From contig NC_049979.1 of NCBI RefSeq assembly GCF_000003815.2, positions 354,036-418,035 on the forward strand: a DNA stretch of 64,000 bases, in the 5' to 3' direction. This document shows, piece by piece, positions 41,386 through 64,000 of this stretch; within the stretch, counting starts at the first letter, position 1; each line of letters starts with the position of its first letter. This DNA is from Branchiostoma floridae. Taxonomy: Eukaryota; Chordata; Leptocardii; Amphioxiformes; Branchiostomatidae. Both the position numbers and the translations under genes were made by a program. Below the pieces are notes generated by a model. It saw nothing but the letters and a program-made list of their open reading frames with translations, had not been told where the DNA came from and did not search any database.

Positions 41386-42331
41386 AACTCGTAAGTACCG
41401 GCTGTTCCCATGAGAGGTCCAGTCACCCCTCACCCGTCCCCGCCGTGCCAGTGGTCTGAGGGAGGTAGCGGTGGTCATTGGAGGGAAGAAGAGACGAGGC
41501 GATGCAGATGATGACTTCTCCCGCTCCGTCAGAATGACCTACTCCGCCAAGCCAACAGGCACAAGTTGGATTCCCATGACTAAAATGAATCAGCTTACTG
41601 TGCCTATTCCTGTAACTGTTCTAGGCACCAGTGACATTGTCATTTCTGATGGCAAAGAAGTGTTGCTGTACCAGCCAGAACTGAACTCCTGGTCCAGTCT
41701 TGCTGCGATGAACTCAGAGCGGTACAGTAACAAGCTGGCGGTGTTGTGTGGTAAAGTTTATTCAATTGGTGGTAACATGAATGGGTTCAGTGGACCTGCA
41801 CTAGCATCAGTTGAGGTCTATGACCGAAGCCAGAACAGGTGGACTGCAGGCGTACCTCTTCCACAGCCAAGGTGCCAGCATGCTGCTATAGTGTTGGATG
41901 GCAGCATATATGTGATGGGCAGGCGTGATGGTGAAAATCATCCACCCTCAACAGTGTACTGCTTCAGCCCTGGAGACTTGCAATGGCACACACTTAAAGA
42001 TATGCCTGTAACAGCTGATTATGCAACAGCTTCAGTTCTCAATGGCAGCATCTATGCTGGACTAGACTCAAATATCTTCTGTTTTACACCCAGCGAAGAT
42101 GGTGGTCTCTGGAGTATGGTAGCATCAGGTATTCCACTCTTTTTCGGTGTTACCGTGTTCAGTGGGAAGGTTGACATCTATGGAGGCTGTGACCAACAAA
42201 CAGACAAGGGAACCAAAAAAGTATTGTGCCTTGATCCAGAAACTCAGTCACTCAATCGTGTGGGATCCATGCCCACAGGTCTGTATGGGCATACTTGTGT
42301 CACTTGTGTCACCATACTGAAGCACTGCTGA

Positions 42332-43889: not shown

Positions 43890-44600
43890 GCAGGGAGATG
43901 GATAAAACTCCCTAGAACCCACCCCCAGATATTTCAGATATATCTGAAACTCCCTAGAACCCACCCCCAGATATTTCAGATACGAGGGGCGTGCAAGAAG
44001 TAATGGCCCTGACCCACTTTCAGTCGTCTGATCTAAATGAAATTTTGTATGTGTAATGATTCATATCTCTATGGGTTATGTTGCAAAAGACAGCTCTGAA
44101 CTAATTGTGGTTTCTGATTTACTGGTGTTTGAACTTAGTCAGGTGCGAAATGGACCAGGTGTGAAATGGAACCAGTTGAGTGTCGCGCAGTGATCCGGTT
44201 TTTGTATTTGAAAGGACGCACACCAAAGAAGACTTTTGATGAAATAAATGAAACTTATGGTGATGATGCCCCATCATATGACCTTGTAAAACGCTGGCAT
44301 CCTGAATTCAAACGTGGCCGGAAGTCTGTGGATACAGCTCCCAGACTTGGTCGTCCCTCTTCTGCCATTGATGAGGCATCTGTTGGAGGACCAACCTGGG
44401 GTGTCCTACAAAAACGGTGTCCAGAGCTGCATCAAACGATGGGAGAAATGCATAACTCTGGGTGATTCCTATGAAGAAAATGACTAATATCTGTGCCAAG
44501 TTTCATTAATCTCCTGCTATGGGAAATGGGTCAGGGCCATTACTTATTGCACGCCCCTCGTATATCTGAAACTCCCTAGAACCCACCCCCAGATATCTCA
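43890..44600. repeat. Tandem copies of the TALPID3 terminal codons
   Basis: A unit of about 43 bp, resembling ACTCCCTAGAACCCACC plus CCCAGATATTTCAGATATA, occurs at about 43910, 43950 and 44570. On the minus strand each encodes DISEISGGGF and a TAG stop, so the stop-codon region of TALPID3 is triplicated downstream of itself. A mariner element is inserted in the TA between copies two and three. Confidence 0.85.
43983..44560 (+). mobile_element. Internally deleted mariner (Tc1/mariner) element
   Basis: The termini are CGAGGGGCGTGCAAGAAGTA and its inverse, matched over about 40 bp, with a TA target duplication at 43981-43982 and 44561-44562. The interior encodes only the N-terminal helix-turn-helix end of a mariner transposase (44166-44465: VECRAVIRFLYLKGRTPKK, APRLGRPSSA) and then runs out of frame. 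The catalytic DDD domain is absent. Confidence 0.9.
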
Positions 44601-45087
44601 GATATATCCGACACCTCCCCTGCGCTGTACTCTCCCCCCTCCAGAGAGCTGACAGTGACACTGTCGTTCTCCCCTTGGATGCTGGGTAACGTTAGCGACA
44701 CCACGAGCGACGTTCTACGCGGGTCATCCTCTTCCTTCTCTGCACCACCCACTGGGAGGCTGAAGCTCCGCGCCTGTCTCCCGGCACTGAGTCCTGATTG
44801 GTCAAACCCAGCAGTGGAACCACCTGTTCTTCCCATGCCGAGCCCTGATTGGTTGAGAGTGTCTGGTCCAGAAGCAGAACCACCGGTTCTACCCATACTG
44901 CGCCCAGATTGGTTGAGAGTGTCCAGTCCAGTCGTGGTCCCTCCCGTTCTTCCCAGGTCAGCGCTGTGATCTGATTGGCTGAAAGACTGGGTGAGGTAGC
45001 CAGACTGGATGAGGGCGTCTAAGTTCATCTGGTCTGGAGTGAAGGTCCGGGTGTCCATGTCACTCAAGGTGTGGGTCCCTTGTAGTC
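44576..45087 (-). CDS. KIAA0586: TALPID3 last exon
   Basis: The acceptor is CGTTTCCAG. The exon encodes DMDTRTFTPDQMNLDALIQS followed by an imperfect peptide repeat (TGLDTLNQSGRSMGRTGGS type, about three units), and ends in an acidic GEVSDISEISGGGF tail with a TAG stop at 44578-44576. Confidence 0.85.
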
Positions 45088-48000
45088 CTGGAAACGTATA
45101 CGTCATGTTGGTTAGTCACTGAATAAAGAGACTCTTTTACACTACTGTTCTTTTTTTTCACCGACTGTCTGTCACCGTTCTCAGGACAATACTGCCTGAT
45201 CCACATTGCACAGCGGCATACATGTAGGTGTTGCTACTTATAGATGAGGTACCAAACGTAAAGTTTTTACATATGTACAGTGATTGTTTTATATGGTGTA
45301 TACCAAGCAGTCCCAAATGTAAAGGAGTGTAATACATACATATGTACCATTTACAATATTGATATAAAAATCATCACCTAGAAGTACAGTGGGAGCGCCC
45401 AGTCTTACCCTGCTGGCTTGTCCTGCCTTCCTCTGGCCCCTCGTCTTCAGGCACAGCCTTCACCGTGATCACCCTGGCCGGCCTCGGGTCGGGGGCTCTG
45501 ACCTCCGACCTCTGCTCGCCCCTCGATGCCGCCAGCGGAGTGCGAGAGCGCGGGGAGGGCCTGGGGTCGTCTGCGGACGCGACGCTGATGACCCGGGGGG
45601 CCGAGGCCGGTTTCCGTGACGACGGCCTCTCCAGGTCAGACAGCACCATGGTGTCGTCCTCGGGAGGAACGGTGCGGTCCCCGGGAATGGTACGGTCCAC
45701 CGGAATGGTACGGCCCGCTGCCTCCCCTCGCGAGCCTCTCCCCGCGTCCCGCGCCTCTCCCAAGAGGACCATCTCCGCAGTCTGGGTCAACCTGGGTCGT
45801 TGCCCCTCGCTGACCTCGCCGACACTTGCGTCATTGTCGGCGCCCCCCTGGGCGGCCGTGGCCTTCTCCACCATGCTCCTGACGGGCTGCTGGGCACGTG
45901 CCAGGAGGGCGAGTAAGGGGTCTTTGTGGACACCGCTCAGGGCTTTGGGCAGCAGCTCACCCTCACTAGGAGGCTCCTGGGAGTACAAGACAGAAGACAT
46001 CAAGGCTTTAAGATCAAGAACATCTGTGAAGAACATCCATGAATTTTATGCACAAATCACCAGGATTCAATAGTTACAGCAAATCTATTTCTTAGCCTTG
46101 TGTACAAGGAGATGCTACTGGTATAACCTGCTAGGTCATGTGCAATTGTTGCTACCAATTTCAATAAGAAACATGCATAAACGCATGATAAGATGCATGT
46201 AAGTTATGTGATATTAGTAGAACCCCATGTGATACGGCAGGTTATCACCCGGTCCAAAATACCCGTATTGAAAATTATCGTGGCCCAAGTATGATATAAC
46301 AAGCATTACAGGAAACACCTGTTCATTCATACCTTTCACTGTATTTTTGAGAATCTTAATAAATAAGTTATACATTGTCTCAGGCACTACGCCTCCTGCA
46401 GAGGAGGATGCCTGGAATTCAATGGAGGACTGATAAGGATGCTGACCTGCTCGTGGTCCATCTCCTCAGCCCCCTCCAGTGTGCTGGCCAGACTGCTGTC
46501 ACCTGACCTGTCTCCTACACCAACCCCGCCTGCAACACCTGTGCAACAGCATTAGGGCATCAGCTTTTAAGTTCATCTGTGTTGGGAGACGTGAATCTGA
46601 AGCAGGTTTAATCTGGGTTTAATATACTACTATCCCTCAAAAGAGAAGGAGTATGCCATAAACTTTCTGCAACATCTGTAACGTATCTTATTTGTAATTG
46701 TATATGTAAAGTACAGGTAACTTTTAATAGGAAAATGTAATAGGAAAGCTCTGCAATTCAGCCCTTAGGCTGCAACCAAGCTTTCAATCCATGTTGTTCT
46801 TGGAAGTAAACCAGTCTACTACTACAGTATAAGCCACTTAATTGCACACCATATTTGCCAGTTATCTGGCTGGACTGCCCTGGTTTGGGATTTGGAGATT
46901 CCATGCAGTTAAGAGAGGTGTCCGGTAATCAGTTGTGCAATTAACTGGCTTCTACTGTACTTATACTACTACATATAACTGTCTTCGAAAAAGGAGTCGA
47001 ACCCAATAACTCAGGATCTAGAGTAGGCTTTTACTAGCTTTAGATTAGAGTAGACACTTGTGATATTGTATTTTACACTGTTTGAATCTTTTATGTTACC
47101 TGCAATTAGCCCATGGGCAAGAATTTGCAATAAACTTGAATTACTATCTGCATAAGATGACATACAAGACTCTTTATCTACAATCAAGATAAATGCATGA
47201 TATATACAATTTTATTATACTTTTATGCTTTATTAACAATCAGAGGATATCAGTGACTGTCACCTTCCCTGAGGCAATGCTTATAGGTGTATACATATCT
47301 TCGTTGTGAACAAACAACCCTGTTATCCAGTAATTTCCCAACCCGATGAAATGAGCTTACCCTGTAGGCCGCCTGCAGCTCCGGCCTGCCCCTTACTGAA
47401 CAGCCACTCCCCCTCGGACAGGGACACGTCTGCCGTCTCCGTAACCGTGGTGATGGCGGAAGAACTGCTGGACTCCGAAGGCGGAGGGGAGTGTTCGGAA
47501 GACGATGGGGGGGACTCCATGGGAGGGGGGAGGCTCTTTGGTGTGACGGGGGGAGGAGGAGGCTGCACCAGGCTCGTTGGTTCCTCAGTTGGGGACACTG
47601 ACATCTCACTGGTGGATAAAGGCATAGGAAAAGACAAATTGATTATTGGCAAGCAACAAACAAAAACTCTGTTAGGAAGCTTCTTTGAAAATCAAATCCA
47701 GACTGCATTGCAATTTTTGCAATGTAGTCTATCGATGCTGGGAGCTGCATTTTCCGTGCCTCCTATTTCTGTCATAAACTGCCTCCCAAAATCTACTTGG
47801 AAAACAGATACTTTGTACTAGGTTGTTTTGCAGCACCTGAATTCACTGCAGAAGTTAATGCATTTTTCTGGCTGCCAGAAGCAACACATCTGCTTGCAAT
47901 TGTCTAGTTCGTTACTGAGACTGGGAGCATTGAAGAGACAGAAGCCCTGGGGTGGCCGCTGCGAGTTTAATGTTTACCGTTTTCAGTTGTGCACAAGGAA

Positions 48001-51000
48001 ACCCGCCAAAAACTAGAAGGAAGCCGCCAACACCCAGGGCCAAGAGGAGAAATAGGTGGCAGACATGCGCAATTGGTTCGACGGAAGCGATAAGAGCGAC
48101 ACCCCGTGCAGCTGTGTAACAGGGGGGACAGGCGTTTGGCATGGTCAGTTAGCACTACATCAACCCCCACTGTTACAGCTGCATGAGAAGCAACCCTGCA
48201 CTCTATAACAAACCAGCAGGTGCAAGGAACAAGGAACAACGCTGCGATCATGAATCATGCTAGATTAAACTTGCTACATGACATAAAATNNNNNNNNNNN
48301 NNNNNNNNNNNNNNNNNNNNNNNNNNNNNNNNNNNNNNNNNNNNNNNNNNNNNNNNNNNNNNNNNNNNNNNNNNNNNNNNNNNNNNNNNGCTCAAGAAGA
48401 CCACAGAAGTCTGGTCTATGTGGACAGGTCACTGTAAACAGAACCTTGAATGCCTGTGTCAATGGGAGAATTTATCTGAGGGACAACCAAAAAGGGGTCA
48501 TAATTGCCAGGTTGTCCAAATCTTATATAGTGTACCTAGTTTATTACACTGCAGAGAGTGATTATAGTCAGATTTTTCTTCCATGCCCAGGTTTGATACT
48601 AATTTCTACTTCAAAACACCTGAGAACCAAGGAGACATGAAACTTTCTCTCTTATTTACTTCTTTGTTTCTTTTCATTTCTTTATTATTGAACCTTTAGT
48701 CATTTAGTTGCTCTTATTGTTGTATGTGTGTACTTTTTTTTGGTAAAATTTTTGTTTGAGGAGAAGACCTGGACAAGCAATGTTGCTTTTTGTCTTTGTA
48801 TCTTCGCATAAAAAAAAGAACATGAAGATAAACTGTTGAGGCCTCACCTGGTGTGATGAGTGTCTCGTGTAGATTCTCCGTCTCAGACTCCACGGGGGAG
48901 GGTTCAGGTGTGCTGTGGGGCGTGGCCTCGGGCGTTGCCACGGGAGACGGACCGCGCGGTGGGCTGGGGACGGGGCTGGCCTTCGGAGTGGGCTGTGGGG
49001 TGGGGATAGGGCTGACCTGGAAACGAGAGGAAGGACATTGTCAAAGGGATACATGTATGTCAAGCAGCCGTGTCTTAAAGATTTGTATTGTAAGTTAGCA
49101 AGATGTTGATTAGTTTTTTTGTACGCTTAAAACAAGGGCTGATAGTTTTAATTCTGCAGTACAGAAAAATTACAAAGACATTTTGCAGTCCCAAATAAAA
49201 ACCCTGCAAACTGTCAAGATTTACAGTATTTTGGTTTTGTTTTGTTTGGTTTAATTTAGATCTCCATTAGTGACAGATACGTCAGTATTCTTCCTGGAGT
49301 CCGGGTGAATGATGTAATCACCATGTGGCTGATACGAGACGGAGGTTCGCCAGGCCTCCATCCAGGTGATTTGTAGTTAACTCCAGACAGAAGGATTTGC
49401 ATGCCCCTTCTCTTATTTGAAAGGTGTGGTAGGTTCTGTAACGTGCGTGGGGTTTGGCTCTCCCCAAACACTTGGCACTTACATGTTTGGGTGATGTGTG
49501 ATCAGGGGAGGGTTCCCTGCGCGGCTGTGCAGGTGGAGGAGGGGGGGTCGCCCGCTGTCTCTCGTGCTGACCCATCATCGCCGCTACCCTCTCCTCCAGA
49601 ACCTCCCGCACCAGCCTCTGCACCAGCGCCATATCCACGGCAACCCCCGCATCAACAAACAGCTGCAGCCCTGCCTGGCCAATCGCTGACACTGCGGGCA
49701 AAGGTTACACATCCAGGTAAACAATAATTAAAAACACTAATCTACAACAGATAAGGTACGGAGATTACTTCCATCGCTTTTTCTGTACCACTTGAACATC
49801 CACAACAGATAAGATACCGAGATTGGACAGAAGAGTTTTCTTTTAAACAACCAGTTTTTCACACCTGCTGACATTTCAATGGCTGTCAGACATCTTCCTC
49901 AGAGCTTCAGACATCGAAATGTCAGCAGGTGAGAAAAACTAGTTGTGCAAAAGAAAACTCTTATGTCCTATGATCTACCAACCTGATGAAATTATTTTCG
50001 GAAGATACAGGGATTAATTCCAGACATTTTGTGTGACATCCTTCACTCTTCTTCAGGATCAGTAGAATGTCAATTTTTATATTCAATGAGGCAATCTGAC
50101 ATGGCAGTCTTTAGAAGTCACAAGCTTAAGTCTGCTTCCAATGGTCCGTATTGCTTTCAATTTTGCTGATGTTAGATGTATATAAAGCATACAAAACTGG
50201 ATTTCAGGCTAAAGCAAGTGCCTTCTGCAGGAACATACAGAAACTGCATTGCAGAATCACAGACATGCGCACAGAGAGACAGACAGAGACAAAAAGAAGT
50301 GTAGTTTTGATAGTACAATGTACAATGTATATGAGGAGTTTTCAACAGCGATACACTGCATGAAGGCATGGAACTCTCCTCTCTAACACAAGAGTGTAAC
50401 GTTATAGCCATATGTATACCTGTACCTGTACCTTCCTACGAGGGTGCAGGGATTAAAAAAATCAGGAAATTGGTCAGGGGAATCAGTCCATGCTTATGTT
50501 AAGATCTGGCTGTGCAGCTGACCAACTCGTTTGGTAGCAAAAGTCCCCTTTCAAATTATTCTCCCTATAATAGCCAGTGTAGTTTCAGTCTAGAAGAGAC
50601 TAGCCATAGTTTATGTACCTGTACCAGGATCCCTTGTGTCAGCGTCCCCTGCAGAGCTCCTGAGTCAGAGGGTTCGGCAGGTTCTGCCTGCCGCTGGGCG
50701 GGGGACAGCTGGTTGATGATTTGTGCCATCAGTTCTGCCTCAATCCTGGAACAGTGAAAAAAGGACCAAGTTTCAAAGAGATCCATCACAAACAACAACC
50801 TCATCATGATCAAAAACCTTATTTTTTTGAGGAGAAAATTCCACCTCACAACAAAATGGACCAACTCAGCATTGACTTAATACCAACACAAGCCCTGTTT
50901 TTCATGACCAATCATGTATGAGCAACATATGACCAAAAAGAAAAGACTAAACTATAGTACAGGAGCCCAAGGCTTCTTTGCTAAAAGCATTGAACCATAA

Positions 51001-54000
51001 GCAAAGCTGCATATTACTATTTGGAAAAATATCATGCTTCTCCTCAATTAAGGAGGACAAAAATTGAAGATTTCATAACTGTGTAAAATACATTGAGCTT
51101 TTGTAAATTTCTCATTAATTCTGTCGAATACTGTAAATGCATTTAAGTTCGCAGGGATTTAATTTTGCGGTAGCGGGAAAAGGGACTTTTCGCGGTGGCT
51201 TTAAGTTCGCTGTAACACCATAGACTGCAAACTAATACCATAACAGAAAAATGTTTGCGGTGGTTTTAAGTTCGCGGTGAAGTGGTCACCGCGAAAACCG
51301 CGAACATTAATCCACCACGAACATTTCTGCATTTACGCATTTTCCAGCCTAGCTTATGCAACTTTGGACCCAGGCCGTGACAACCTTCCCACTCTGAGTG
51401 AGCAACTTTTGACGGTCCCAAGCCAAGCCAACTTTCCCATCTGGCCAGTGGGTACACTATCTTCTGCTTCACATCCTGCCACTCTACAGTATGCAACTAA
51501 CTGCAGACACAAAGCCTAAACCAGGCTCCGCAGATTGCTAGAAATTGTAGACATTGGCTATGGGACCGGTGAGGTGAGGTGAAGCCAGATATGCTAGGAG
51601 GGGTCAATTGGTGAACCAACACCCGTAGCATTCACTCTATTTGGCCAATTTTTACTACATGTACCAGTAGTATTTCCAGTGATCTTTAGAGCCTTGTAGA
51701 CACACACCAAGACCAACAAACACACAGACCAAAACCACTACCTCCACATTTTCACCCACCATTCCACTGCCCTGGTCTCCACCTGATTCCTCCTCCTGAG
51801 CTCCTCAGCCATCGCTTCAGAGGAGGGCTGTACCACCTCGCGGGGGAGGGGGTTGTGGGGGGAAGGGGGGGCCGTGGTACTCCCTCCCCTCCCCCCTCGT
51901 GTCACCCTCCACCATCAGGCCTGTGCCCGGCTGTTTCAGGTCACGTTCTATCTCATCCTAAAAAGAAAGGATCACAAATAACAATCATTTATGATGGATA
52001 AGAATATAGGCTGCATCAAAGAGCTGGAAAAAATCAAAATCTAATATTTGGTATTAAAAATTTCACGTCACGCTCTATCTCATCTTCAAAGGAAAAGTAT
52101 TACAAATAACAATCATTTATGGTGAATATGAATATAGGTTGCATCACAGAGCTGGAAAAGATGAAAATTTAATATTTGGTATAAAAAATGAGGCAGTAGG
52201 TGTTGAGACTCCTGCTTTGTTCCCTTTTGGTTACTCTAAGACATCAAAGACCTTCTACTGTGTTTGAGAACCTTAATAAATGAATAATAGATAAATAAAG
52301 TTCTCAGCTCAGTTCCCCCTTCAGATATTGCCTACAATCCTTAACAATCTTTAACCTTACATCATTGTCATTCACAACCCATCTTCAAAAACCTGTTAAA
52401 AAAATCATTATTAGATAATCAAACATTTAATTAATCTCCCATTCATTGTCAGTTGTTACATTTCTTTCAATGTTATATTCTTATTACATCATTTCATTCA
52501 TTTTGCCGTTATGATATTGCATAAGTTATCAATTATTGAACTATTATGATTTATTTCCATTTTGTTAATTGATATAATTCTTTTGGTTATATTATTGTCT
52601 AATGTTTAATTTTACACGTCTATTCAATCTTGTTACTTTGGAGGAAGACTTTGTACAAGCCACGAGGCTTTTTTCTTCCCCCCTGCACGTACTTTCTTCC
52701 TTTAACTTGTTTTATGTTAACTTTTTAAAGATTGTGCAAAATAAATAAAGTCAAGTAAATAAAGTCAAGTCAATCCTCTCATACCACTGAGTACCGAGTA
52801 CCAACTACCCTGGAAGCCAGAGTACCGTGAGGCAGCTACTGTGCTTTTAGCTGGCCCTTAGAGACATGCCTTGTAAATTGGCGGTGACAATTAGCTGTCT
52901 CTGGCTGTCCAGCATAGCTAACAATGTGTAACATGTTGAATAAAATTGATTGTTGATTACATCTGAGGCACAACTTTTAAATGAATCAGCTTACAAAAAA
53001 GAAATTCAGAAATAAAAAATTCTTACCATCTCCTCTGCTTCCTCCTCCGCATCTCCTCCATACTGATCAAACTCTCTGTACTCTGTGTCTTCAGGTGGCC
53101 CAGCTGGTTGCTGCAGACACAGAACAATGTGTTAGAATTAAAGCTTATTACAGGAAGCAATGAGAAATCTAACAAGTTCACATTCTATGCTGCAGTTTGT
53201 CTTTCATCCACAAGGTGGTGTTGCAAATCCATTCCTGTCTACTGATAGCAAATGCTTAAGATGGGCTTACAATAATACATAACGTTCTTAAAGTTTAAAG
53301 TTGCCTGTGCATCTGTAAAAGATGCTTAGGGGTGGCGCCCATCTCCATTTCTGTAGCCCTTGGGCCACACATTTGTGCAAGCCACTACAGCAGGGGTCTA
53401 GTCTGCTAGTAGACCTTAAACTTCTTGGCAAAGCTAAAAATCCTTGGCGTAAGTAATACAGGTGAGTCTGAGGTGTCCCATACCTGGTCTGCTGGAGGCA
53501 TCTCAGGAGGGAAGGTGGCTTTAGCGGCAGTGTCTGAGGCCGGGCTGTGTGGGACACTGTCTATGTCAACAGCTGGCATCACCTGTAGAAAAGGACCATG
53601 ATGGTTCAGTTCTTAACATGTTCCTTCAGAAAGTAGCACATTTCAATGATGATAATCGTACACTTAAAAAAGTTTGGATATGTACATGTAATCAATCTTA
53701 CCGGAAAAAAATCATTTCCCCCTGTGGTTCAGGAGAACAAAACAGGCCTTGACTGAAGAAAACTTTACTGTACATATAGCAAAATGGTTTCTACTACATA
53801 GCTGCAAGTTTTTAAAAAGTGTTTCCTGGGACATCCAAGTACACACACCTGGACTGAGAGTTTCGGTTTACGAGCGTCCTTGTCCGTCACCATGGTAACA
53901 GTGGCCACATTGGGCCTGGTGGTGCCCTGAGTCCGGTTTGGTAGAGCAGTCAACGGTACGGCCTGGAAACAGGAATGAGAAGCAAAAAAAAAAAGAATGT

Positions 54001-57000
54001 TAGCAAGACAATATGAACAAGAAATCAAGATGTCATACGTGCACTTGTGTAAAGTACAAAATGTATGTTATACTCTGTTGAGTTTTTGTGAGTTTTTTCA
54101 TTCATTTATAATTTCATGTTAATTCTGTCTGTATTTTCCTGCCAGCTTGCAGGACCCACTTTGGACCAGGGCCAAGCCGTTCCATGCTGCCTGTGAGAAG
54201 AGTCTATGGTCATAGTTAAAACTTACCTGAGTGTGAGAAGAAAACTGACCTGAGTGTGAGAAGAAAACTGACCCGAGTGTGAGAAGAAAACTCACCTGAG
54301 TGTGAGAAGAAAACTCACCTGAGTGTGAGAAGAAAACTCACCTGAGTGTGAGAAGAAAACTCACCTGAGTGTGAGAAGAAAACTCACCTGAGTGTGAGAA
54401 GAAAACTGACCCGAGTGTGAGAAGAAAACTCACCTGAGTGTGAGAAGAGTCTATCCTGGGTGCCCCCAGGGGTATGGCCATGGGGATGAGCTGCCCCTGC
54501 TGGGGGGTGGGGGCCGCTCCCCCAGGGTAGGGGAGCCCTGCCTGTGGGTAGGGGGCTGCAGGGGAGAAGTAGTACTGTGCCGCAGTACCGGCGGCTCTGC
54601 CAGGTGGCGGCTTCTCCTTGGTCTGAGTCTTCATGGACTTCATAATGGTGCCTGAAGAAAAAGAGAAAGTACTTCGACATTTCAGACTTCTTACAAGTAT
54701 CAAATCTATTTGTTGCTTCTTGGATTTTTTTCAACTCTTGAGCTGAAGTGGAGGTACAGACATGTTACCTTTAGTATCTACAGCCTTGGTCCTGGGTTAT
54801 GTTACCTTTAGTATCTACAGCAGGACTGGGACTGGGAGCCTTGGTTCTGGGTTATGTTACCTTTAGTATCTACAGCAGGACTGTGTCTGGGAGCCTTGGT
54901 TCTGGGTTATGTTACCTTTAGTATCTACAGCAGGACTGGGTCTGGGAGCCTTGGTCCTGGGTTATGTTACCTTTAGTATCTACAGCAGGACTGGGAGCCT
55001 TGGTTCTGGGTTATGTTACCTTTAGTATCTACAGCAGGACTGGGTCTGGGAGCCTTGGTCCTGGGTTATGTTACCTTTAGTATCTACAGCAGGACTGGGA
55101 GCCTTGGTCCTGGGTTATGTTACCTTTAGTATCTACAGCAGGACTGGGTCTGGGAGCCTTGGTACTGGGCTATGTTACCTTTAGTATCTACAGCAGGACT
55201 GGGTCTGGGAGCCTTGGTCCTGGGTTATGTTACCTTTAGTATCTACAGCAGGACTGGGAGCCTTGGTCCTGGGTTATGTTACCTTTAGTATCTACAGCAG
55301 GACTGGGTCTGGGAGCCTTGGTACTGGGTTATGTTACCTTTAGTATCTACAGCAGGTCTGGGAGCCTTGGTACTGGGCTATGTTACCTTTAGTATCTACA
55401 GCAGGTCTGGGAGCCTTGGTCCTGGGTTATGTTACCTTTAGTATCTACAGCAGGACTGGGTCTGGGAGCCTTGGTCCTGGGTTATGTTACCTTTAGTATC
55501 TACAGCAGGACTGGGTCTGGGAGCCTTGGTCCTGGGTTATGTTACCTTTAGTATCTACAGCAGGACTGGGTCTGGGAGCCTTGGTACTGGGTTATGTTAC
55601 CTTTAGTATCTACAGCAGGTCTGGGAGCCTTGGTACTGGGCTATGTTACCTTTAGTATCTACAGCAGGTCTGGGAGCCTTGGTACTGGGCTATGTTACCT
55701 TTAGTATCTACAGCAGGACTGGGTCTGGGAGCCTTGGTCCTGGGTTATGTTACCTTTAGTATCTACAGCAGGACTGGGTCTGGGAGCCTTGGTCCTGGGT
55801 TATGTTACCTTTAGTAGCTACAGCAGGACTGGGAGCCATGGTCCTGGGTTATGTTACCTTTAGTATCTACAGCAGGACTGGGTCTGGGAGCCTTGGTCCT
55901 GGGCGGGGGTGAGTTGAAGTGGAGATACGGCTGCTTCTCAGTGGTCCTGTGAGGGTGGTGTCGGGCCTTGCCGTACACGCGGGTAAGGTAAGTCTCGTCC
56001 TGCTCATAGAAGGGCACACCTCTCGTCTGCTTGGGCTAGGAGGAGGCAATGAAAAAAAAGGTACTGCTGAACTGAATCCCCTTGCATAGTTTTGTCAGGT
56101 TGGTATAAGTCACTGGTTAAGAGTTCAATACCTTGCTCATATTTTGCCAACCTACCTTTGGATAATACTGACCGGATTTACTTATCACTACATAAAGTGA
56201 CTAAAGATATTTACTTTCATACTCTGTTTTTGTTGGTATCATTTATAGTTTTGGAGGCTTATCAACAGACATGTACCGTTAGTGCTCCTCTAAAAGTAAC
56301 AGGAGAAATACACTCGGCACAAAAAGTTTGGAATATCAACTTAGGTATGTCATATTTCCGTTATTTATGCATCAATTTCAATGTATTATATATCAATAGA
56401 AAGCTTGTGTGATTTTCTTTCCTATGGTATCAAACTTATCTTGATTGTAAACACATGAAACGAGTACAAGACCTGCTTACATGAGTGGGTCACGAAAAAA
56501 AAGTGCCCAAATTCCCCTGCTTCTGTTCAACACTGTATCGCCCTGTTGATATTGGCCCGTGTGTCACTGGTTCAATCAATCCTTTTTTCACCTCACATTT
56601 GGTATACGGAACATACAAGGTTTTAGCACACTTAGAGTAGAGTATATCCCTTTCGATAGTCGGATGGACATCAAAGCGCGGATGCGGCAAGGAGGACCGC
56701 ACGCTGACACGACAAGAGTAACTTTCGGCATTTGGTGGTGGACTGTGGAGGCAGCGTCATGGTGTGGGGTGGTATAACCGCCATAGGAAAAACAAGACTC
56801 GTCATCATTCCAGGCAACTTCAATGTGGTGAGATATAGGGACACCATCCTCCATCCAGTAACAATATCCTACCTCTTCAATATTGGACCAAATGCCATTC
56901 TGCAAGATTACAACACCAGTCCACACAAAGAAAGGACCATTGGATGCTGGAGTACAGTCTTAGGGAATAGCCTTCCTATGGCTTATGGCTAGCACTCGAT

Positions 57001-60000
57001 TGATCACCTCTTGCCATGGTTCAGATTTTTGGCTTGAATAAAGAGTAGCAGTAGCTTTGATTGACATGTCCTGTTTATTCAACTTGCCTTCATTCACAAG
57101 TCAATACCGACGGAAGAAAATGAGCAGCATGGAGTGATTGACTTTAGTAGGGTAATTTCGGCACTTTATCTTTAGGACCCCCTGTACGTAAGCAGGTCTG
57201 GTGCTCGTTCCATGAATTTACACTCATAAGATACTCTCTTCAGATATGCTAAAAAGAAACTTAGATGTTCTGTATACCAAACGTTAGGTGAAAAAGGGAT
57301 TGATTGAATCATTGTCACCCGCGGCCATAACAACCGGATACAGTTTTGAACAAAAACGGGGGAATTTGGGCACTTTTTTTTCGTGACCCACTCACGTTAG
57401 CAGGCCTAGTGTATGTTCCGTGAGTTAACAATGAAAATGAATTTCATACCATTGGAAAGAAAATCATACAAGCTTTCTATTGATATATAATATATTGAAA
57501 TTGATGCAGAAACAGCAAAAATATGATCAACCGAAGTTGATATTCCAAACTTTTTGTGCTGAGTGTAGATACTATTAGACTTGGTAAGTAGTAGCTACCT
57601 CAATACATTACTCTTAGCAATCGGTACTTACCTTTGGACTACTTGTAACCTTTTCTTTCACTGGAGGTTTTCTAATCTTCTCCTCAGACTTCCCCGGGGC
57701 TTTTTCCTTCCCCTTGGTGCTTGCTGCCTTTGGAGGCCTCCTCAGCCCAGTGTTGATCCTGGGTTGCGCTCGTCCTCTGCCTCTGCCTGCCCTCGGTACA
57801 GACTTCTCAGGCACACTCGGCCCTGGGTCACGTTCAGGCACTTGTTCCTCCACAAAGGACACCTTCTTGGGCTTTGGGTTTTTCGTCAAGTGTTTCATGA
57901 CTTCATCCTGTTGGAAGGTGAGATGATATTATAAAAGGTAACACAATTTCACATTTATCCGCAGGGTAACCTATATCCATTGTATATAAAAACATATCTT
58001 GGATATCAAGTCAATGGAGGGTGGTTTCTAACCAGTGTTTTCGAAATATTGAGTTTGAAACCACAGTACGTCAACCTCACATCCCTAAATACCCTGTTTG
58101 TAAGAGCAACGGATATAGGTTAACCCGCGGATTGAACTAGACTGTTATATGTAAATTGGCAAAATTATTTGAACTAAATATTTGAACTAACAGGAAAAAG
58201 TTGGCTACATGTATGAGAAGCCCTCCCATAGGGCAATAACTCTCTTGTTGAAGTGATTTTGACCTTCTCCCTACTGCCTATCTAAGCTGGGAACCATCCT
58301 ATGTTCACTGCTGCTACCCGTCTGGGGAACTGGATATTCAAATCTTCTGGCCGTGATATCAGTTAATGACCACATTAAGGAATGGGTTATGGAGTGCCAA
58401 TCAGCCCCATAGTTCAAAATTGAATATTCCAGGTGATAGAGACATCCCCAGATACTTCCCCAGATAGAACAGTAGAGAAGCAAATGTATATAATGAACGT
58501 TGGAGCAAGAACGGCTGTATGATATAGTGTACAATAAACATTGGAGCAAACTGTTACCCGGATGGTACCCAGGCTACTGTCTAACCCCATACCAATTATA
58601 GAGAAGTTGTAGCCAAACAACTACTTCAGCGTGCTTAAGGTTAGGTATCTAGTACAGGGTACTTAAGGTTAGGTATTTAGTACAGGGTACTTAAGGTTAG
58701 GTATTTAGTACAGGGTACTTAAGGTTAGGTATTTAGTACAGGGTACTTAAGGTTAGGTATTTAGTACAGGGTACTTAAGGTTAGGTATTTAGTACAGGGT
58801 ACTTAAGGTTAGGTATTAAGTACAGGGTACTTAAGGTTAGGTATTTAGTACAGGGTACTTAAGGTTAGGTATTTAGTACAGGGTACTTAAGGTTAGGTAT
58901 TTAGTACAGGGTACTTAAGGTTAGGTATTTAGTACAGGGTACTTAAGGTTAGGTATTTAGTACAAGGTACTTAAGGTTAGGTATTTAGTACAGGGTACTT
59001 AAGGTTAGGTATTTAGTACAGGGTACTTAAGGTTAGGTATTTAGTACAGGGTACTTAAGGTTAGGTATCTAGTACAGGGTACTGAAGGTTAGGTATCTAG
59101 TACAGGGTACTTAAGGTTAGGTATTTAGTACAAGGTACTTAAGGTTAGGTATTTAGTACAGGGTACTGAAGGTTAGGTATCTAGTACAGGGTACTTAAGG
59201 TTAGGTATTTAGTACAAGGTACTTAAGGTTAGGTATTTAGTACAGGGTACTTAAGGTTAGGTATCTAGTACAGGGTACTGAAGGTTAGGTATCTAGTACA
59301 GGGTACTTAAGGTTAGGTATTTAGTACAAGGTACTTAAGGTTAGGTATTTAGTACAGGGTACTTAAGGTTAGGTATTTAGTACAGGGTACTTAAGGTTAG
59401 GTATCTAGTACAGGGTACTTAAGGTTAGGTATCTAGTACAGGGTACTTAAGGTTAGGTATTTAGTACAGGGTACTTAAGGTTAGGTATTTAGTAAAGGTA
59501 CCTCCACTTCCGGAGTCAGCTGGTTGATCATGGCATCTACCTCCCTCCTGATGCGTGCCCGGTCTGCACTCGGCCTGCAAAACATGTCACAACATCACTC
59601 AAACAGGACTGGGTCAGGACAACATCACTCAAACAAGACTGGGAACATCACACATACAGGACTGGGTCAGGAGAACATCACACATACAGGACTGGGTCAG
59701 GAGAACATCACACATACAGGACTGGGTCAGGAGAACATCACACATACAGGACTGTCTGCACTCGGCCTGCAAAACATGTCACAACATCACACAAACAGGA
59801 CTGGGGCAGGACAACATCACTCAAACAAGACTGGGAACATCACACATACAGGACTGGGTCAGGAGAACATCACACATACAGGACTGGGTCAGGAGAACAT
59901 CACACATACAGGACTGGGTCAGGAGAACATCACACATACAGGACTGTCTGCACTCGGCCTGCAAAACATGTCACAACATCACACAAACAGGACTGGGTCA

Positions 60001-61457
60001 GGACAACATCACTCAAACAAGACTGGGAACATCACACATACAGGACTGGGTCCGGAGAACATCACACATACAGGACTGGGTCAGGAGAACATCACACATA
60101 CAGGACTGGGTCAGGAGAACATCACACATACAGGACTGGGTCAGGGGAACATCACACATACAGGACTGGGTCAGGAGAACATCACACATACAGGACTGGG
60201 TCAGGAGAACATCACACATACAGGACTGGGTCAGGAGAACATCACACATACAGGACTGGGTCAGGAGAACATCACACATACAGGACTGGGTCAGGAGAAC
60301 ATCACACATACAGGACTGGGTCAGGGGAACATCACACATACAGGACTGGGTCCTTGGCATTATCTGTATCTGTATTTATGGTACAGACAGTTTAATTGCG
60401 AGAATCATATTAATACACAGATGATTATATTGTGTAAACTTGCAATGTATATAGTAACCACTCAAGAGACCTTTCCCTCACTCACTTGCTCGCTCATTTG
60501 CTCGCTCACTCACTCACTGCTCTTCTACAAAGAGAAAGCCTGGGTACCATCCAGATAGTAGTTCGCTCCTATGTTCGCTTCTGCTATCCGTCTGGAGACG
60601 TGCGCATTCAAACCGTTTGGTGGTAAAATCAGTTAATGAGTGAATCAAGGAATGGGTTCTAGAGCACACATTCGATGACAACAGGACAGAGGGCTTGTCT
60701 GGTGTTGGAACACCGTTTGAACGAGCGCTTGAACCCATTCCATAATTCGCTCATGTGTAGGGACAAATCAGTGCCTGCGTCCAAAATTTGGATGATTCCA
60801 GACGTTAATATGGTCCCCGTTCCCAGACGGAAACACAGAGAAGCAACTGTATATAGTGTATAATGAATGTCAGAGCTAGAAGCGACTGTATATAGTGTAT
60901 AATGAACGCCGGAGTGAACTGCTTTTCCAGATGGTACCCAGGCTCGGTCATATCTGCATCATTAGAAAGGACCACCAACAAGTAGCAAGGTTGTCAGTGG
61001 TCAGTAGAGCAGGTTTAACTGAATATCAGTGAACAGGATTGTCATGCAGAGGTTGCCAGTAATATAGATAAAGCCATGTTGTTGCCCCAGTGACTGTGTA
61101 GGCAGTAGAAGCCTGACCCTTACCCCTGCTGGTACAGGCTGTCCATGAGCTGGTACAGCTGGGACTTACCCCTGCTGGTACAGGCTGTCCATGAGCTGGT
61201 ACAGCTGGGACTTACCCCTGCTGGTACAGGCTGTCCATGAGTTGGTACAGCTGGGACTTACCCCTGCTGGTACAGGCTGTCCATGAGTTGGTACAGCTGG
61301 GACTTACCCCTGCTGGTACAGGCTGTCCATGAGTTGGTACAGCTGGGACTTACCCCTGCTGGTACAGGCTGTCCATGAGTTGGTACAGCTGGGACTGGTC
61401 CTTTGCTCTCACCACAGCCTCCAGGTTGTCCTCCAGGTAACGCCTGCTGACAGTCAC
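44576..61457 (-). CDS. KIAA0586: TALPID3 / KIAA0586 homolog, 3' two thirds, 16 exons
   Basis: Exons in transcript order: 61457-61354, 59574-59502, 57907-57632, 56035-55858, 54651-54434, 53962-53849, 53582-53484, 53110-53027, 51957-51760, 50745-50619, 49691-49483, 49016-48848, 47597-47361, 46538-46447, 45976-45409, 45087-44576. TALPID3 is a centrosomal protein needed for ciliogenesis and Hedgehog signalling. Signature stretches are LEAVVRAKD, RIRREVDAMINQL, YLTRVYGKA with YLHFNSPPP, GQLIPMAIPLGAPR, IEAELMAQIINQL, IGQAGLQLFVDAGVAVD with VREVLEERVAAMMG, the PTPQPTP proline run, and SLSEGEWL. Phases agree at all junctions except two, described separately. About 1,090 residues are recovered; vertebrate forms are about 1,500-1,650, so the N-terminal part lies beyond 64000. 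Introns carry tandem arrays at the splice sites, plus Tc1 and MITE insertions. Confidence 0.9.
45409..45976 (-). CDS. KIAA0586: TALPID3 exon with EPPSEGELLP and a charged linker
   Basis: The acceptor is GTACTCCCAG and the donor GTAAGA. It opens with EPPSEGELLPKAL and DPLLALLARAQQPV, then a long Arg/Pro/Ser-rich, probably disordered linker containing a short repeat (RTIPVDRTIPGDRTVPPED). At 568 bp it is the largest exon found. Confidence 0.85.
46447..46538 (-). CDS. KIAA0586: TALPID3 small acidic exon
   Basis: The acceptor is TGTTGCACAG and the donor GTCAGC. It encodes GDSSLASTLEGAEEMDHEQ and joins both neighbours in phase. Confidence 0.75.
47361..47597 (-). CDS. KIAA0586: TALPID3 proline/serine exon ending SLSEGEWL
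   Basis: The phase of the previous exon selects the acceptor GAGATGTCAG over the one 13 bp upstream, which would put the exon in another frame. It encodes PTEEPTSLVQPPPPP, a serine run and TVTETADVSLSEGEWLFSKG. Confidence 0.8.
48290..48389. other. Assembly gap (100 N)
   Basis: Exactly 100 undetermined bases, the usual placeholder for a gap of unknown size, in a TALPID3 intron. ORFs drawn across it are meaningless. Confidence 0.99.
48848..49016 (-). CDS. KIAA0586: TALPID3 PTPQPTP exon
   Basis: The acceptor is CGTTTCCAG and the donor GTGAGG. It encodes VSPIPTPQPTPKASP, PEATPHSTPEPSP and a final VESETENLHETLITP, matching the proline-threonine run of vertebrate TALPID3. Confidence 0.85.
49483..49691 (-). 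CDS. KIAA0586: TALPID3 exon with IGQAGLQLFVDAG
   Basis: The acceptor is TTGCCCGCAG and the donor GTAAGTG. It encodes the well-conserved IGQAGLQLFVDAGVAVD and VQRLVREVLEERVAAMMG. It needs one base from the preceding exon, yet the exon at 50745-50619 ends in phase 0, so a small exon is probably missing between them. Confidence 0.85.
49826..49972. mobile_element. Palindromic MITE-like element
   Basis: AGAGTTTTCTTTT and TTTTTCACACCTGCTGACAT on the left are matched by their inverse copies on the right (AATGTCAGCAGGTGAGAAAA, then AAGAAAACTCT). The result is a hairpin of about 147 bp with a loop of roughly 30 bp, in a TALPID3 intron. Confidence 0.8.
50619..50745 (-). CDS. KIAA0586: TALPID3 exon with IEAELMAQIINQL
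   Basis: The acceptor is ACTGTTCCAG and the donor GTACAT. It completes a Trp codon with the previous exon (VEW, then IEAELMAQIINQLSP), which fixes the reading frame on both sides. Confidence 0.85.
51129..51337. mobile_element. Palindromic MITE, TACTGTAAATGCA termini (copy 3)
   Basis: Same termini and CGCGGT-rich interior as the copies at 4573 and 10967. The right end is worn (TGCATTTACGCA). It lies in a TALPID3 intron. Confidence 0.8.
51760..51957 (-). CDS. KIAA0586: TALPID3 exon with an apparent one-base frameshift
   Basis: The acceptor is TTTTTTAG and the donor GTGGGTG. The entry frame gives DEIERDLKQPGTGLMVEGD. The exit frame gives REVVQPSSEAMAEELRRRN and QVETRAVEW. The two are one base out of register and meet in runs of G/C at about 51840-51900. 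Both ends agree with their neighbouring exons, so this is more likely a homopolymer error than true gene decay. Confidence 0.8.
53027..53582 (-). CDS. KIAA0586: TALPID3 two small exons (53582-53484, 53110-53027)
   Basis: The first exon encodes VMPAVDIDSVPHSPASD and FPPEMPPADQ. The second encodes QPAGPPEDTEYREFDQYGG and a run of Glu. Both are whole-codon exons (33 and 28 codons) with standard GT/AG ends; the acidic composition suits the disordered middle of TALPID3. Confidence 0.8.
53849..53962 (-). CDS. KIAA0586: TALPID3 38-codon exon
   Basis: The acceptor is CTGTTTCCAG and the donor GTGTGT. It encodes AVPLTALPNRTQGTTRPN and VATVTMVTDKDARKPK, in phase with both neighbours. Confidence 0.8.
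54227..54450. repeat. 23-bp minisatellite on a TALPID3 splice donor, 10 copies
   Basis: In transcript orientation the unit is GTGAGTTTTCTTCTCACACT plus CAG. It begins with a donor, contains a pyrimidine tract and ends in an acceptor-like CAG. The first copy overlaps the end of the exon at 54651-54434. The most distal copy carries the strongest donor, GTAAGT. Confidence 0.95.
54434..54651 (-). CDS. KIAA0586: TALPID3 exon with GQLIPMAIPLGAPR
   Basis: The acceptor is TTTTTCTTCAG. It encodes GTIMKSMKTQTKEKPPPG, AAQYYFSPAAP and QQGQLIPMAIPLGAPR, then IDSSHTQ from the repeat-derived tail at the donor. Confidence 0.85.
54760..55905. repeat. 49/55-bp minisatellite made of exon end plus donor, about 20 copies
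   Basis: Each unit reads, in transcript orientation, CCAGGACCAAGGCTCCCAG, CCCAGTCCTGCTGTAG and ATACTAAAG/GTAACATAA. This is the last 45-50 nt of the exon at 56035-55858 together with its splice donor. Long units have an extra 6 bp (GACCCA type). The array fills most of the intron. Confidence 0.95.
55858..56035 (-). CDS. KIAA0586: TALPID3 exon with YLTRVYGKA and YLHFNSPPP
   Basis: The acceptor is CCTCCTCCTAG and the donor GTAACA. It encodes VPFYEQDETYLTRVYGKA and EKQPYLHFNSPPPRTKAPRP, a stretch well conserved in vertebrate TALPID3. Its 3' end is the template of the downstream array. Confidence 0.9.
56311..57565 (+). mobile_element. Tc1-like transposon relic with about 220-bp inverted repeats
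   Basis: The ends CACTCGGCACAAAAAGTTTG and its inverse lie next to TA duplications (56309-56310, 57566-57567), with imperfect inverted arms of about 220 bp. The interior (about 56730-56990, plus strand) encodes Tc1 transposase phrases: GGSVMVWGGITAIGKTRLV, VIIPGNFNVVRYRD and NAILQDYNTSPH. The N-terminal DNA-binding part and the start are lost. Confidence 0.9.
57632..57907 (-). CDS. KIAA0586: TALPID3 basic exon (VSFVEEQVPERDP)
   Basis: The acceptor is CTTCCAACAG and the donor GTAAGTAC. It encodes DEVMKHLTKNPKPKK, VSFVEEQVPERDP and a long Lys/Arg/Pro-rich linker (GRGRGRAQPRINTG). It spans 92 whole codons. Confidence 0.85.
58630..59500. repeat. 28-bp minisatellite at a TALPID3 donor, about 31 copies
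   Basis: The unit is GGGTACTTAAGGTTAGGTAT plus TTAGTACA, with T/C and G/A variants. In transcript orientation the array starts at the donor of the exon 59574-59502 (GTGGAG/GTACC), and each unit repeats a GTACC. Confidence 0.95.
59502..59574 (-). CDS. KIAA0586: TALPID3 exon with RIRREVDAMINQLTPEVE
   Basis: The acceptor is TGTTTTGCAG and the donor GTACC. It is a 73-bp exon, in phase with both sides. It is bounded by repeat arrays on both flanks; part of its 5' end is duplicated within the upstream array. Confidence 0.85.
59590..60356. repeat. 30-bp minisatellite with three copies of a splice acceptor
   Basis: The unit is GAACATCACACATACAGGAC plus TGGGTCAGGA. A higher-order unit of about 187 bp adds TGCACTCGGCCTGCAAAACA at 59566, 59755 and 59943. 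That is the acceptor and first exon bases of the TALPID3 exon at 59574, so two extra acceptor copies exist upstream. The 344-codon ORF across it is a by-product of the 30-bp period. Confidence 0.95.
61123..61400. repeat. 46-bp minisatellite of exon end plus donor, 6 copies
   Basis: In transcript orientation each unit is 41 nt of the end of exon 61457-61354 (TCCCAGCTGTACC...CAGCAGGG) plus GTAAG. Copies start at 61123, 61169, 61215, 61261, 61307 and 61353. Each offers an identical splice donor. Confidence 0.95.
61354..61457 (-). CDS. KIAA0586: TALPID3 exon with LEAVVRAKD (most 5' exon found)
   Basis: The acceptor is CTGTGCTCAG and the donor GTAAGT. It encodes VTVSRRYLEDNLEAVVRAKD and YQLMDSLYQQG, matching the coiled-coil-rich central part of TALPID3. 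Upstream exons are not visible in the remaining 2.5 kb. Confidence 0.85.
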
Positions 61458-61562
61458 CTGAGCACAGGTACAGAGGTTAAACACCTGAGCACAGGTACAG
61501 GGGTTACACACCTGAGCACAGGTACAGGGGTTACACACCTGAGCACAGGTACAGAGGTTAAA
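61450..61562. repeat. 27-bp minisatellite on a splice acceptor, 4 copies
   Basis: In transcript orientation the unit is GTGTGTAACCCCTGTACCTG plus TGCTCAG, and it runs into the acceptor of the exon at 61457. Each copy ends in the same TGCTCAG/GTG acceptor. Confidence 0.9.
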
Positions 61563-61789
61563 CAGACTTGTATTAGATGTCTTCTGAGCTTAAAGTGAAA
61601 GTGTACATATAGCTAGCTCACTGAAGAGAAGACAGACACTACGTACAGCAGTATTTACAAGTTCTTTGTACCAGGAAGTTTCCCTAGCACAATGAACTAT
61701 GGACTATGGCTTAGCATCCCATCCTGAGGACTGCAACCCTTTAAGGTCGTATGTTGGGTGAGTGACACAGTCGGAGTTAAACTCGAGGT

Positions 61790-63510
61790 TGGACAGCAAT
61801 ACAGCTAGTGTGAGGTCATTTGGAATCAGGGACAGCAATGAAGCTAGTGTGAGAGACATTCAGCACCAGCTCAGGTAAGTTACGGCCTGTGATTCGATGA
61901 AGCTTGCCGAGGAGTGAAAAAGGGCGCGGTCCCTCAAGGTTACCAGGGCGATGGAACCGAACATGAAATTCGAACCACTGCGTGTCCGCAGTTGACCCCG
62001 CTTGACCACAACGTTGCAGAACGGTCCAATGTCATAATGTAACGATACATTGCGAAAACAGGAACTCACTATGTATGGGGCACACTCACCACTTTTGGTA
62101 AAACGTCCAAATGCTAACCGTATTAGATATTGATGAAGAATGTATCAAATATTGACATAATTCGATGCCTGTGACAAAAAGAGGCCCTCGCGGAAGCCGC
62201 ATAATGGTACCGTCCGAGCCCCGTTCGATCGAACGGCCGAACCCTTGGGTTGTGAAATGGCGGGAAAACGACAGCGGCGCTGGCAGCGGTTCTGAAGGAC
62301 CGTTACCATCGCATTTACGGGCTTCGTCCTCGGTGACAACAGTACTTTTTTTGACAATATAGACAAATTCGTATTTATAATCCCTTTTAAAAGAAATTTA
62401 TCCATCGCTATTTGGTTTGATCATGAGAGGATTTCCTCTAGAGCGGATTATTGACCAAAATGGAGAAAAAAACTCCATTTTACCAATTTTTTACCCCAAA
62501 AAAGTTATGATGAATTAATATACAACAAAATAGCGACGGACAAAATAAATCTACTTGAGTTTATCTGTCATCCTGTGAAATATGAGGGTCCAGAACGTTG
62601 TCTCCACCGAGGACAGGGCACATGAAATGAACCTAATATTTTTTAACCAAAATGTGTGTTTTTTAACCCAAAAATCTATCATATCAACATAATTTGTCCG
62701 GTGTTTTATTTCATTTAATTACTACTAGCACCTTGTGAAATTTCATTGCAATACGACAATGCTATCGAATTTTACAAGCATGTACCCATTTTACCATGTA
62801 TACCGCAGTGTCACATGCCGTAATTGACCAGAGAGGGACAGCAATGAAGCTAGTGTGAGAGACATTCAGCACCAGGGACAGCAATGAAGCTAATGTGAGA
62901 GACATTCAGTACCAGGGACAGCAATGAAGCTAGTGTGAGAGACATTCAGTACCAGAGACAGCAATGAAGCTGGTCTGAGTTATTCAGCACCAGGGACAGC
63001 AATGAAGCTAGTGTGAGAGACATTCAGTACCAGGGACAGCAATGAAGCTAGTATGAGAGACATTCAGTGCTCGTGTGAGAGACATTCAGTACCAGGGACA
63101 GCAATGAAGCTCGTGTGAGAGACATTCAGTACCAGGGACAGCAATGAAGTTAGTGTGAGAGACATTCAGCACCAGGGACAGGAATGATGCTGGTGTGAGA
63201 GACATTCAGCACCAGGGACAGGAATGATGCTGGTGTGAGTTATTCAGCACCAGGGACAGCAATGAAGTTAGTGTGAGAGACATTCAGTACCAGGGACAGC
63301 AATGAAGCTAGTGTGAGAGACATTCAGCACCAGGGACAGCAATGAAGCTAGTGTGAGAGACATTCAGCACCAGGGACAGCAATGCAGCTAATGTGAGAGA
63401 CATTCAGCACCAGGGACAGGAATGAAGCTGGTGTGAGTTATTCAGCACCAGGGACAGCAATGAAGTTAGTGTGAGAGTCATTCAGCACCAGGGACAGGAA
63501 TGTTTCTAGT
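61790..63510. repeat. 40-bp minisatellite split by a transposon
   Basis: The unit is GGGACAGCAATGAAGCTAGT plus GTGAGAGACATTCAGCACCA, with about two copies before 61870 and about 16 after 62833. No exon touches it in this window; an exon just beyond either end cannot be excluded. 63511-64000 shows no recognisable feature. Confidence 0.9.
61870..62833. mobile_element. Inverted-repeat transposon inside the 40-bp array
   Basis: The left end CTCAGGTAAGTTACGGCCTG and the inverse of the right end (CTCTGGTCAATTACGGCATG) match at about 18 of 24 positions. The interior (about 960 bp) has a GC-rich block at 62190-62320 and no transposase. Repeat units resume on both sides. Confidence 0.75.
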
Positions 63511-64000
63511 GTGATGGTTATTCAGTGACAAAGAAAGAGGCACTAACATGGGTGGGTGTTAGACGCCCATTCCTCGTTAAAGGGGCAAATTGCTGTCGCA
63601 CATAAGCAGCGGGCCACAGTTTTCTTTAAAGACACAATGACTACGTATTTTGCCCTTTTCCGTTACAAGTACATGATAGTAATATGCTAAGCAATGTTTT
63701 CCCACCATTGTTAGTTGCCTTTTGGTCGTCCCGGGTAAGGTTTTGCTTAGAAACACGCTAAAAACACGTGTCGGAAATGCTATAAAGGTGAATATCGTGG
63801 CATTCTGATAATGAAAAGACGTTAGTTCTTTAAATTTTCAGTCATAATTTACATCAACCTCTTAGGCCGGCTTGTCACGTGTTGATGAACTTGTCCAGCA
63901 GACGACCTTTTTACGTCAGATGCCGTTTTATTCTTGTCGCCAACTTTTGTATAATTTACGTTACCGAACTTCTGTTGGGTGTAGTTCGCTTACGAAAAGA

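Follow-up and report, generated by a model that had tools for sequence, protein, structure and literature searches.

Tandem arrays on exon-intron junctions of a TALPID3 gene in the lancelet Branchiostoma floridae

The TALPID3 gene and its tandem arrays

The window analysed here comprises 64,000 nucleotides of the lancelet Branchiostoma floridae (NCBI RefSeq assembly GCF_000003815.2, contig NC_049979.1, positions 354,036 to 418,035) and contains a TALPID3 gene in which tandem arrays lie on exon-intron junctions. Positions refer to the window; those prefixed C1 refer to a 35.3-Mb contig of the searched assembly (513.4 Mb, 431 contigs), on which window 31959-32786 corresponds to C1:385994-386821. 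Eight minus-strand exons with GT-AG borders and one continuous open frame were modelled, namely A (61354-61457), B (59502-59574), C (57632-57907), D (55858-56035), E (54434-54651), F (53849-53962), G (53484-53582) and H (53027-53110). The joined protein of exons A-H matches the Pfam family TALPID3 with E=1.6e-48 at profile positions 391-750, in agreement with the gene named by an initial annotation of this DNA, and the gene identity is sound. Later profile positions, up to the end of the profile, are matched in Pfam by the open frames 49318-49704, 47323-47691 and 45374-46045. Taken from exon A through its last open frame, the gene occupies 44576-61457 on the minus strand and covers profile positions ~388 to 1261; the exon formed by this last frame (44576-45115), which ends at 44,576, gave no Pfam match. 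Exon borders from 51.9 kb downward were set by eye. The exon near 51957 (51780-51957) shows a frame change in a G-rich stretch, explained either by an indel in the assembly or by a border missing from the model, and the gene contains a 100-bp assembly gap at 48290-48389.

Tandem Repeats Finder (TRF) recovered all six arrays that the initial annotation had placed at TALPID3 junctions, with limits matching within a few bases; five contain a junction and one starts exactly at a donor. All six are described on the minus strand. The 23-bp array (54218-54448, x10) spans the donor of exon E (54433/54434) with a unit of 14 bp exonic and 9 bp intronic sequence. Splice-site scoring with donor and acceptor matrices gave 10 donor-like copies in this array, six of them CAG/GTGAGT and three weakened. 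The 49/55-bp array (54764-55903; x21 by TRF, with a TRF span of 54782-55903) spans the donor of exon D (55857/55858) and carries the donor AAG/GTAACA in 22 copies, all identical, and the 46-bp array (61119-61396, x6) spans the donor of exon A (61353/61354) with a unit of ~41 bp exonic and 5 bp intronic sequence and six donor copies. The acceptor of exon A (61457/61458) is contained in the 27-bp array (61455-61564, x4), which has four acceptor copies.

Two of the six arrays differ from their first description. The 28-bp array (58627-59498, ~31 copies) does start at position +1 of the intron, with its units aligned to exon B's donor (59501/59502), its TRF end lying 3 bp short of the exon, but it does not multiply usable donors, because among the ~31 copies scored the first copy alone scores as a donor. 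The 30-bp array (59562-60352) does contain the acceptor of exon B (59574/59575), but its 30-bp units are wholly intronic and lie inside a 192-bp higher-order unit, and it is this larger unit, present in three copies, that carries the acceptor together with the first 13 bp of exon B. The unit sequences had also been called unrelated, which does not hold for all of them: the 55- and 30-bp arrays have one 12-mer in common, in the same orientation, that was not found outside arrays in the 234 kb examined. Measured by TRF span, the arrays reach into the exon by 15 bp (23-bp array, E), 46 bp (55/49-bp array, D) and 43 bp (46-bp array, A) at donors and by 3 bp (27-bp array, A) and 13 bp (30/192-bp array, B) at acceptors. 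No consistent purifying signal was seen on the donor copies, as all 22 are kept in the 55-bp array but three of ten are weakened in the 23-bp array.

Further arrays were found in and around the gene. A 128-bp tandem duplication (51934-52189, minus strand, x2, 86% matches), absent from the initial annotation, lies across the acceptor of an exon whose start is near 51957, with ~24 bp of exonic sequence, the exon border having been set by eye. A 40-bp array (62834-63514, no strand assigned, TRF) is the seventh of the stretch from 53,027 to 63,514 and lies on no modelled junction; one detached copy of its unit is seen by eye ~1 kb off (~61828-61869), beside plus-strand CAGGTAAGT at 61872-61880. 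Farther upstream in the gene, TRF and donor scoring gave two donor arrays of TALPID3, at C1:427790-427990 and C1:547415-547940. An N-terminal exon of TALPID3 has a 134-bp x3.9 donor array at its end; Pfam matches this exon at positions 82-154 (5.2e-6; 25.0 bits, below the cut-off of 27), and a longer genomic match scores 38.6 bits. At C1:428.0 kb an open exon, spotted through its array, ends in a 30-bp donor array; this second exon has no Pfam support of its own, the match starting at residue 28, its last residue. Between the N-terminal exon and the rest of the gene lie ~130 kb (C1:418035-547400), which is either an intron of great length or the result of misjoined scaffolds, with many arrays and, at C1 433-438 kb, a run of long open reading frames resembling a mobile element.

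Placement of the arrays compared with chance

In the stretch 53,027-63,514, six of seven arrays are on a TALPID3 junction. The seven arrays were placed at random, without swallowing exons, in 4000 trials under each of nine settings, and on average 0.4-1.3 of them touched a junction. With 4 or 10 bp of slack (six settings) none of the 4000 trials had six or more arrays touching a junction; under the remaining, strict settings (three), five arrays containing a junction gave P=0.00025. TALPID3 was picked for its arrays, and all chance tests on this gene, including those given below, are therefore post hoc. By plain coverage, arrays make up 12.3% of the gene, and nine of 35 junctions lie in or abut an array where 4.3 would be expected (P=0.023); by a strict count it is eight of the 35 modelled junctions (P=0.059).

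Coverage by array length alone was dropped as the right measure, as growth of an array copies the unit and should not engulf unique flanks. Unit length would be the fitting null for the origin of arrays, because a single duplicated unit is taken to found an array. Arrays are dense in this region (47 clusters with a score of at least 100 in 234 kb), and 31 arrays that are intronic by exclusion amount by unit length to 1.5% of TALPID3 intron. Uniform seeding at this rate predicts 0.5 junction arrays among the 35 junctions; eight are seen (P=3.6e-8), or nine with the abutting one (P=1.6e-9), and seeding at junctions is therefore favoured. Outside the stretch of the six reported arrays the excess is small, with three of 19 junctions (P=0.0026), or two of 17 (P=0.025) if the exon at 428 kb, revealed by its own array, is left out. 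The arrays and their register with the junctions are observed directly, and their placement on TALPID3 junctions is non-random.

Consequences for the reading frame

Each exon was translated together with the array units that would be included by every alternative donor or acceptor copy. Distal donors led to a premature stop in 34 of 35 cases (exon A 5/5, exon D 21/21, exon E 8/9), and stops also follow from either of the two additional acceptors of exon B, whereas the three additional acceptors of the 27-bp array at exon A preserve the open frame and would add nine residues each. The suggestion that the arrays are tolerated as suppliers of equivalent splice sites is only partly right. As distal donors nearly always add a stop, functional mRNA should use the exon-proximal copy, and the array would then be removed with the intron. 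TALPID3 also has ordinary coding minisatellites, open-frame repeats of 60 bp (44817-44931) and 18 bp (45666-45713), and these exonic repeats are multiples of three, which several junction arrays (23, 28, 46, 49/55 and 128 bp) are not.

Junction arrays elsewhere in the genome

Eight 5-kb stretches (L034-L037 and L045-L048), the first halves of items 2-9 of an 80-item random list, were taken unseen as a blind sample and contained nine array loci after grouping of TRF rows by hand. Four of the nine, all in L036, belong to a single gene that matches DENN once its exons are joined (9.6e-11; 3.1e-16 with an exon start added). Three of its arrays are copies of donor junctions, and the fourth repeats an acceptor with a coding-looking start, the real exon lying off the stretch. 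Judged by their TRF limits, two of these three donor arrays include the donor itself, a count that random placement reaches or exceeds with P=0.03-0.07. In addition, a globin search of the assembly gave nine matches, one of which (L015) has a 158-bp x4.2 array repeating an acceptor and exon start.

Genome-wide, pairs of the donor word CAGGTRAGT 20-50 bp apart were counted with the reversed word as control. There are 888 donor-word pairs (459+429) against nine (7+2) for the reversed word, where chance predicts 7 and 1.5, respectively; with 15,134 single donor words and 7,039 reversed ones, this corresponds to 5.9% versus 0.13% pairs per word, a 46-fold difference. By eye, 25 of 100 listed donor-word pairs are one dispersed repeat with ~50-bp subrepeats, and removal of this share leaves ~34-fold. 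On C1 up to 2.96 Mb, six of 49 independent plus-strand donor words are loci with at least four copies within 500 bp; the plus-strand listing of single words on which this rests matches all five such words in the 234 kb examined. The word with one base changed, CAGCTRAGT, gave 295 raw pairs and its reversed form 11, but apart from 11, its listed places all resemble, by eye, a single dispersed repeat family with subrepeats of 47 bp, which makes it a weak control. Clusters outside these families number, by eye, six for CAGCTRAGT (C1 to C8:1.1 Mb) versus 19 for the donor word (C1 to C2:33.0 Mb), and 262 kb contain three single CAGCTRAGT words versus 11 independent donor words and seven reversed words. 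The two dispersed families, with subrepeats of ~50 bp (CAGGTGAGT...) and 47 bp (CAGCTGAGT...) as judged by eye, occur on C1, C2 and further contigs.

Outside TALPID3, ten array loci of the donor word were examined for exons, and at three of them an exon with database support ends at the first donor. Two are dynein exons 8 kb apart, one at C1:221.8 kb (phmmer against PDB, 2.7e-6; 0 Pfam families) and the other at C1:230.0 kb (Pfam AAA_7, 2.9e-6; 0 matches by phmmer against PDB); the third is an MFS exon at C1:29.24 Mb (2e-16). Junction arrays are thereby demonstrated directly in several genes, and the notion that they are peculiar to TALPID3 is ruled out by those of the DENN gene, the dynein exons and the MFS exon. 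The donor word is in genuine excess, of which just a part has been demonstrated at true junctions. Taken together, these observations are a useful hint that junction arrays are common in the B. floridae genome and clustered in some genes.

Other features of the window

A 194-bp satellite forms two blocks ~2.7 kb apart in opposite orientation, at window 143-1986 and at C1:349409-351512, with 357 common 12-mers, every one on opposite strands. A protein kinase domain is encoded on the minus strand at window 31959-32786 (C1:385994-386821) in a 972-aa open frame, and a Kelch-repeat frame lies at window 41414-42331. The TALPID3 intron that separates exon C from exon D contains an element (56309-57567) with 231-bp inverted arms that are 85% complementary. 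Its internal open reading frame looks like a remnant of a Tc1/mariner transposase; the transposon-like frame 56708-56992 gave 0 Pfam families. A search of the whole window against Rfam gave 0 matches at gathering scores.

Discussion

The initial annotation knew of no described process that would place arrays on junctions across one gene. The amphioxus 'mirages', tandem arrays spanning the exon-intron boundaries of amphioxus genes, are exactly this, as described in two papers (PMC3087553; PMC3902484), the first of which credits the name to a 2002 Adh3 paper. BflGb6 of B. floridae has an array of 150-160 bp units, present in two haplotypes with six and three units (PMC3087553), and troponin C and PGBD5 were added as mirage genes (PMC3902484). 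In the descriptions of Adh3, BflGb6, BflGb9, troponin C and PGBD5, arrays span donor or acceptor boundaries and many, not all, copies keep AG/GT. In this lancelet gene, likewise, the unit spans the boundary in five of the six reported arrays, the 28-bp array starting at +1 without spanning it, and many but not all copies keep the splice signals. Published unit sizes are 10-72 bp for Adh3, 150-160 bp for the globin and 60 and 108 bp for PGBD5, compared with 23-192 bp in TALPID3. The globin array found here at L015 resembles the published BflGb6 type in its array. TALPID3 differs from the published mirages in having many in one gene (nine of 35 junctions), with up to ~31 copies. Length polymorphism and somatic instability are further marks of mirages; the copy numbers given here for TALPID3 are those of one assembly. 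The TALPID3 arrays are very probably mirages, i.e., minisatellites founded by tandem duplication across an exon-intron junction, and the gene is a further example of the named phenomenon. Non-random placement and recurrence, both within TALPID3 and in other genes, survive from the initial interpretation; its novelty does not.

Such a founding tandem duplication would span the junction and leave an intact junction beside the exon, so that further copies would fall inside the intron and be removed by splicing. Slippage or unequal exchange could afterwards lengthen the array with the protein untouched, provided that the spliceosome takes the exon-proximal copy. The use of this copy predicted for TALPID3 agrees with what the mirage papers report for other genes, where the mirages of Adh and troponin C are stated to yield no aberrant mRNAs (PMC3902484). 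We infer from the reading frames which copy is used; the mode of growth, and a preference for junctions as founding sites beyond mere tolerance, are inferences too.

What brings the arrays to the junctions can be read in several ways. If duplications arose anywhere, with exonic ones purged and those at junctions surviving like those deep in introns, no site preference would be needed. The abundance of arrays fits this reading (47 clusters in 234 kb; 31 intronic by exclusion in the TALPID3 span), and so does the coverage test, with its P of only 0.023. Tolerance alone, however, predicts no excess over intron interiors, whereas eight junction arrays are seen for 0.5 expected from uniform seeding with the observed unit lengths, six of seven arrays are on junctions against ~1 of 7 in random placement, and donor-word pairs are 46-fold more frequent per occurrence than those of the reversed word; as the whole explanation, tolerance is unlikely. 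The same three results speak for seeding directed to junctions, where a motif like AG/GTRAGT, a step in composition between exon and intron or a co-transcriptional structure would make them preferred sites, and so does the recurrence in TALPID3 (9/35), in the DENN gene (three, probably a fourth) and in two dynein exons. Against this directed seeding, TALPID3 was chosen post hoc, and CAGCTRAGT gave its 295 pairs, though by eye mostly from one dispersed repeat. Several observations weigh against the reading of the arrays as mirages: by plain array coverage the excess at TALPID3 is only about twofold, TRF places the start of the third DENN donor array 63 bp past the donor, and the five other loci of the blind sample show no coding evidence by eye. 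Among the ten donor-word loci, moreover, one has an open exon that belongs to no family and six show no coding support on that strand (two of these appear, by eye, to be coding on the opposite strand), so that part of the donor-word excess may be the word's own. We regard junction-directed seeding as coming close to an even chance.

Two further readings appear far less credible. Tandem reads might have collapsed or stuttered at a few places of the assembly, and the chromosome assembly of B. floridae (19 chromosomes) is described as rebuilt from existing shotgun data (PMC7269912), the copy numbers at the PGBD5 locus differ between two versions (PMC3902484) and the BflGb6 array appears aberrantly assembled in the draft genome (PMC3087553). 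Against an artefact, the TALPID3 copies carry distinct substitutions and form ordered higher-order units, the same sources report that the PGBD5 repeats were confirmed by resequencing data (PMC3902484) and that BflGb6 has its haplotypes of six and three units (PMC3087553), and we consider such an origin most improbable. The arrays might also be introns in the making, as proposed for amphioxus globins (PMC3087553). A related process is the gain of introns through tandem duplication of internal segments with AGGT (PMC4974935; model in PMC3087553). Both processes duplicate splice signals, but the TALPID3 arrays amplify existing junctions and show no new intron, and the exons after the arrays do not begin with a unit copy when exon starts and units are compared by eye; there is very little to recommend this origin here.

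On this evidence we put forward, tentatively and as somewhat short of an even prospect, that in the lancelet genome minisatellites are founded preferentially at exon-intron junctions, and most of all at donors, at many times the uniform rate, and that TALPID3, DENN and dynein genes would be ordinary examples of a genome-wide process of junction-directed duplication. No genome-wide survey of mirages was found in the literature searched, which took in few subscription papers, and a full annotated count of junction arrays across the genome may be new. If the proposal is true, the lancelet would be a natural system in which tandem duplication meets splicing. It would bear on how the spliceosome picks one among up to 22 identical donors and on whether such arrays feed into intron gain or exon change.

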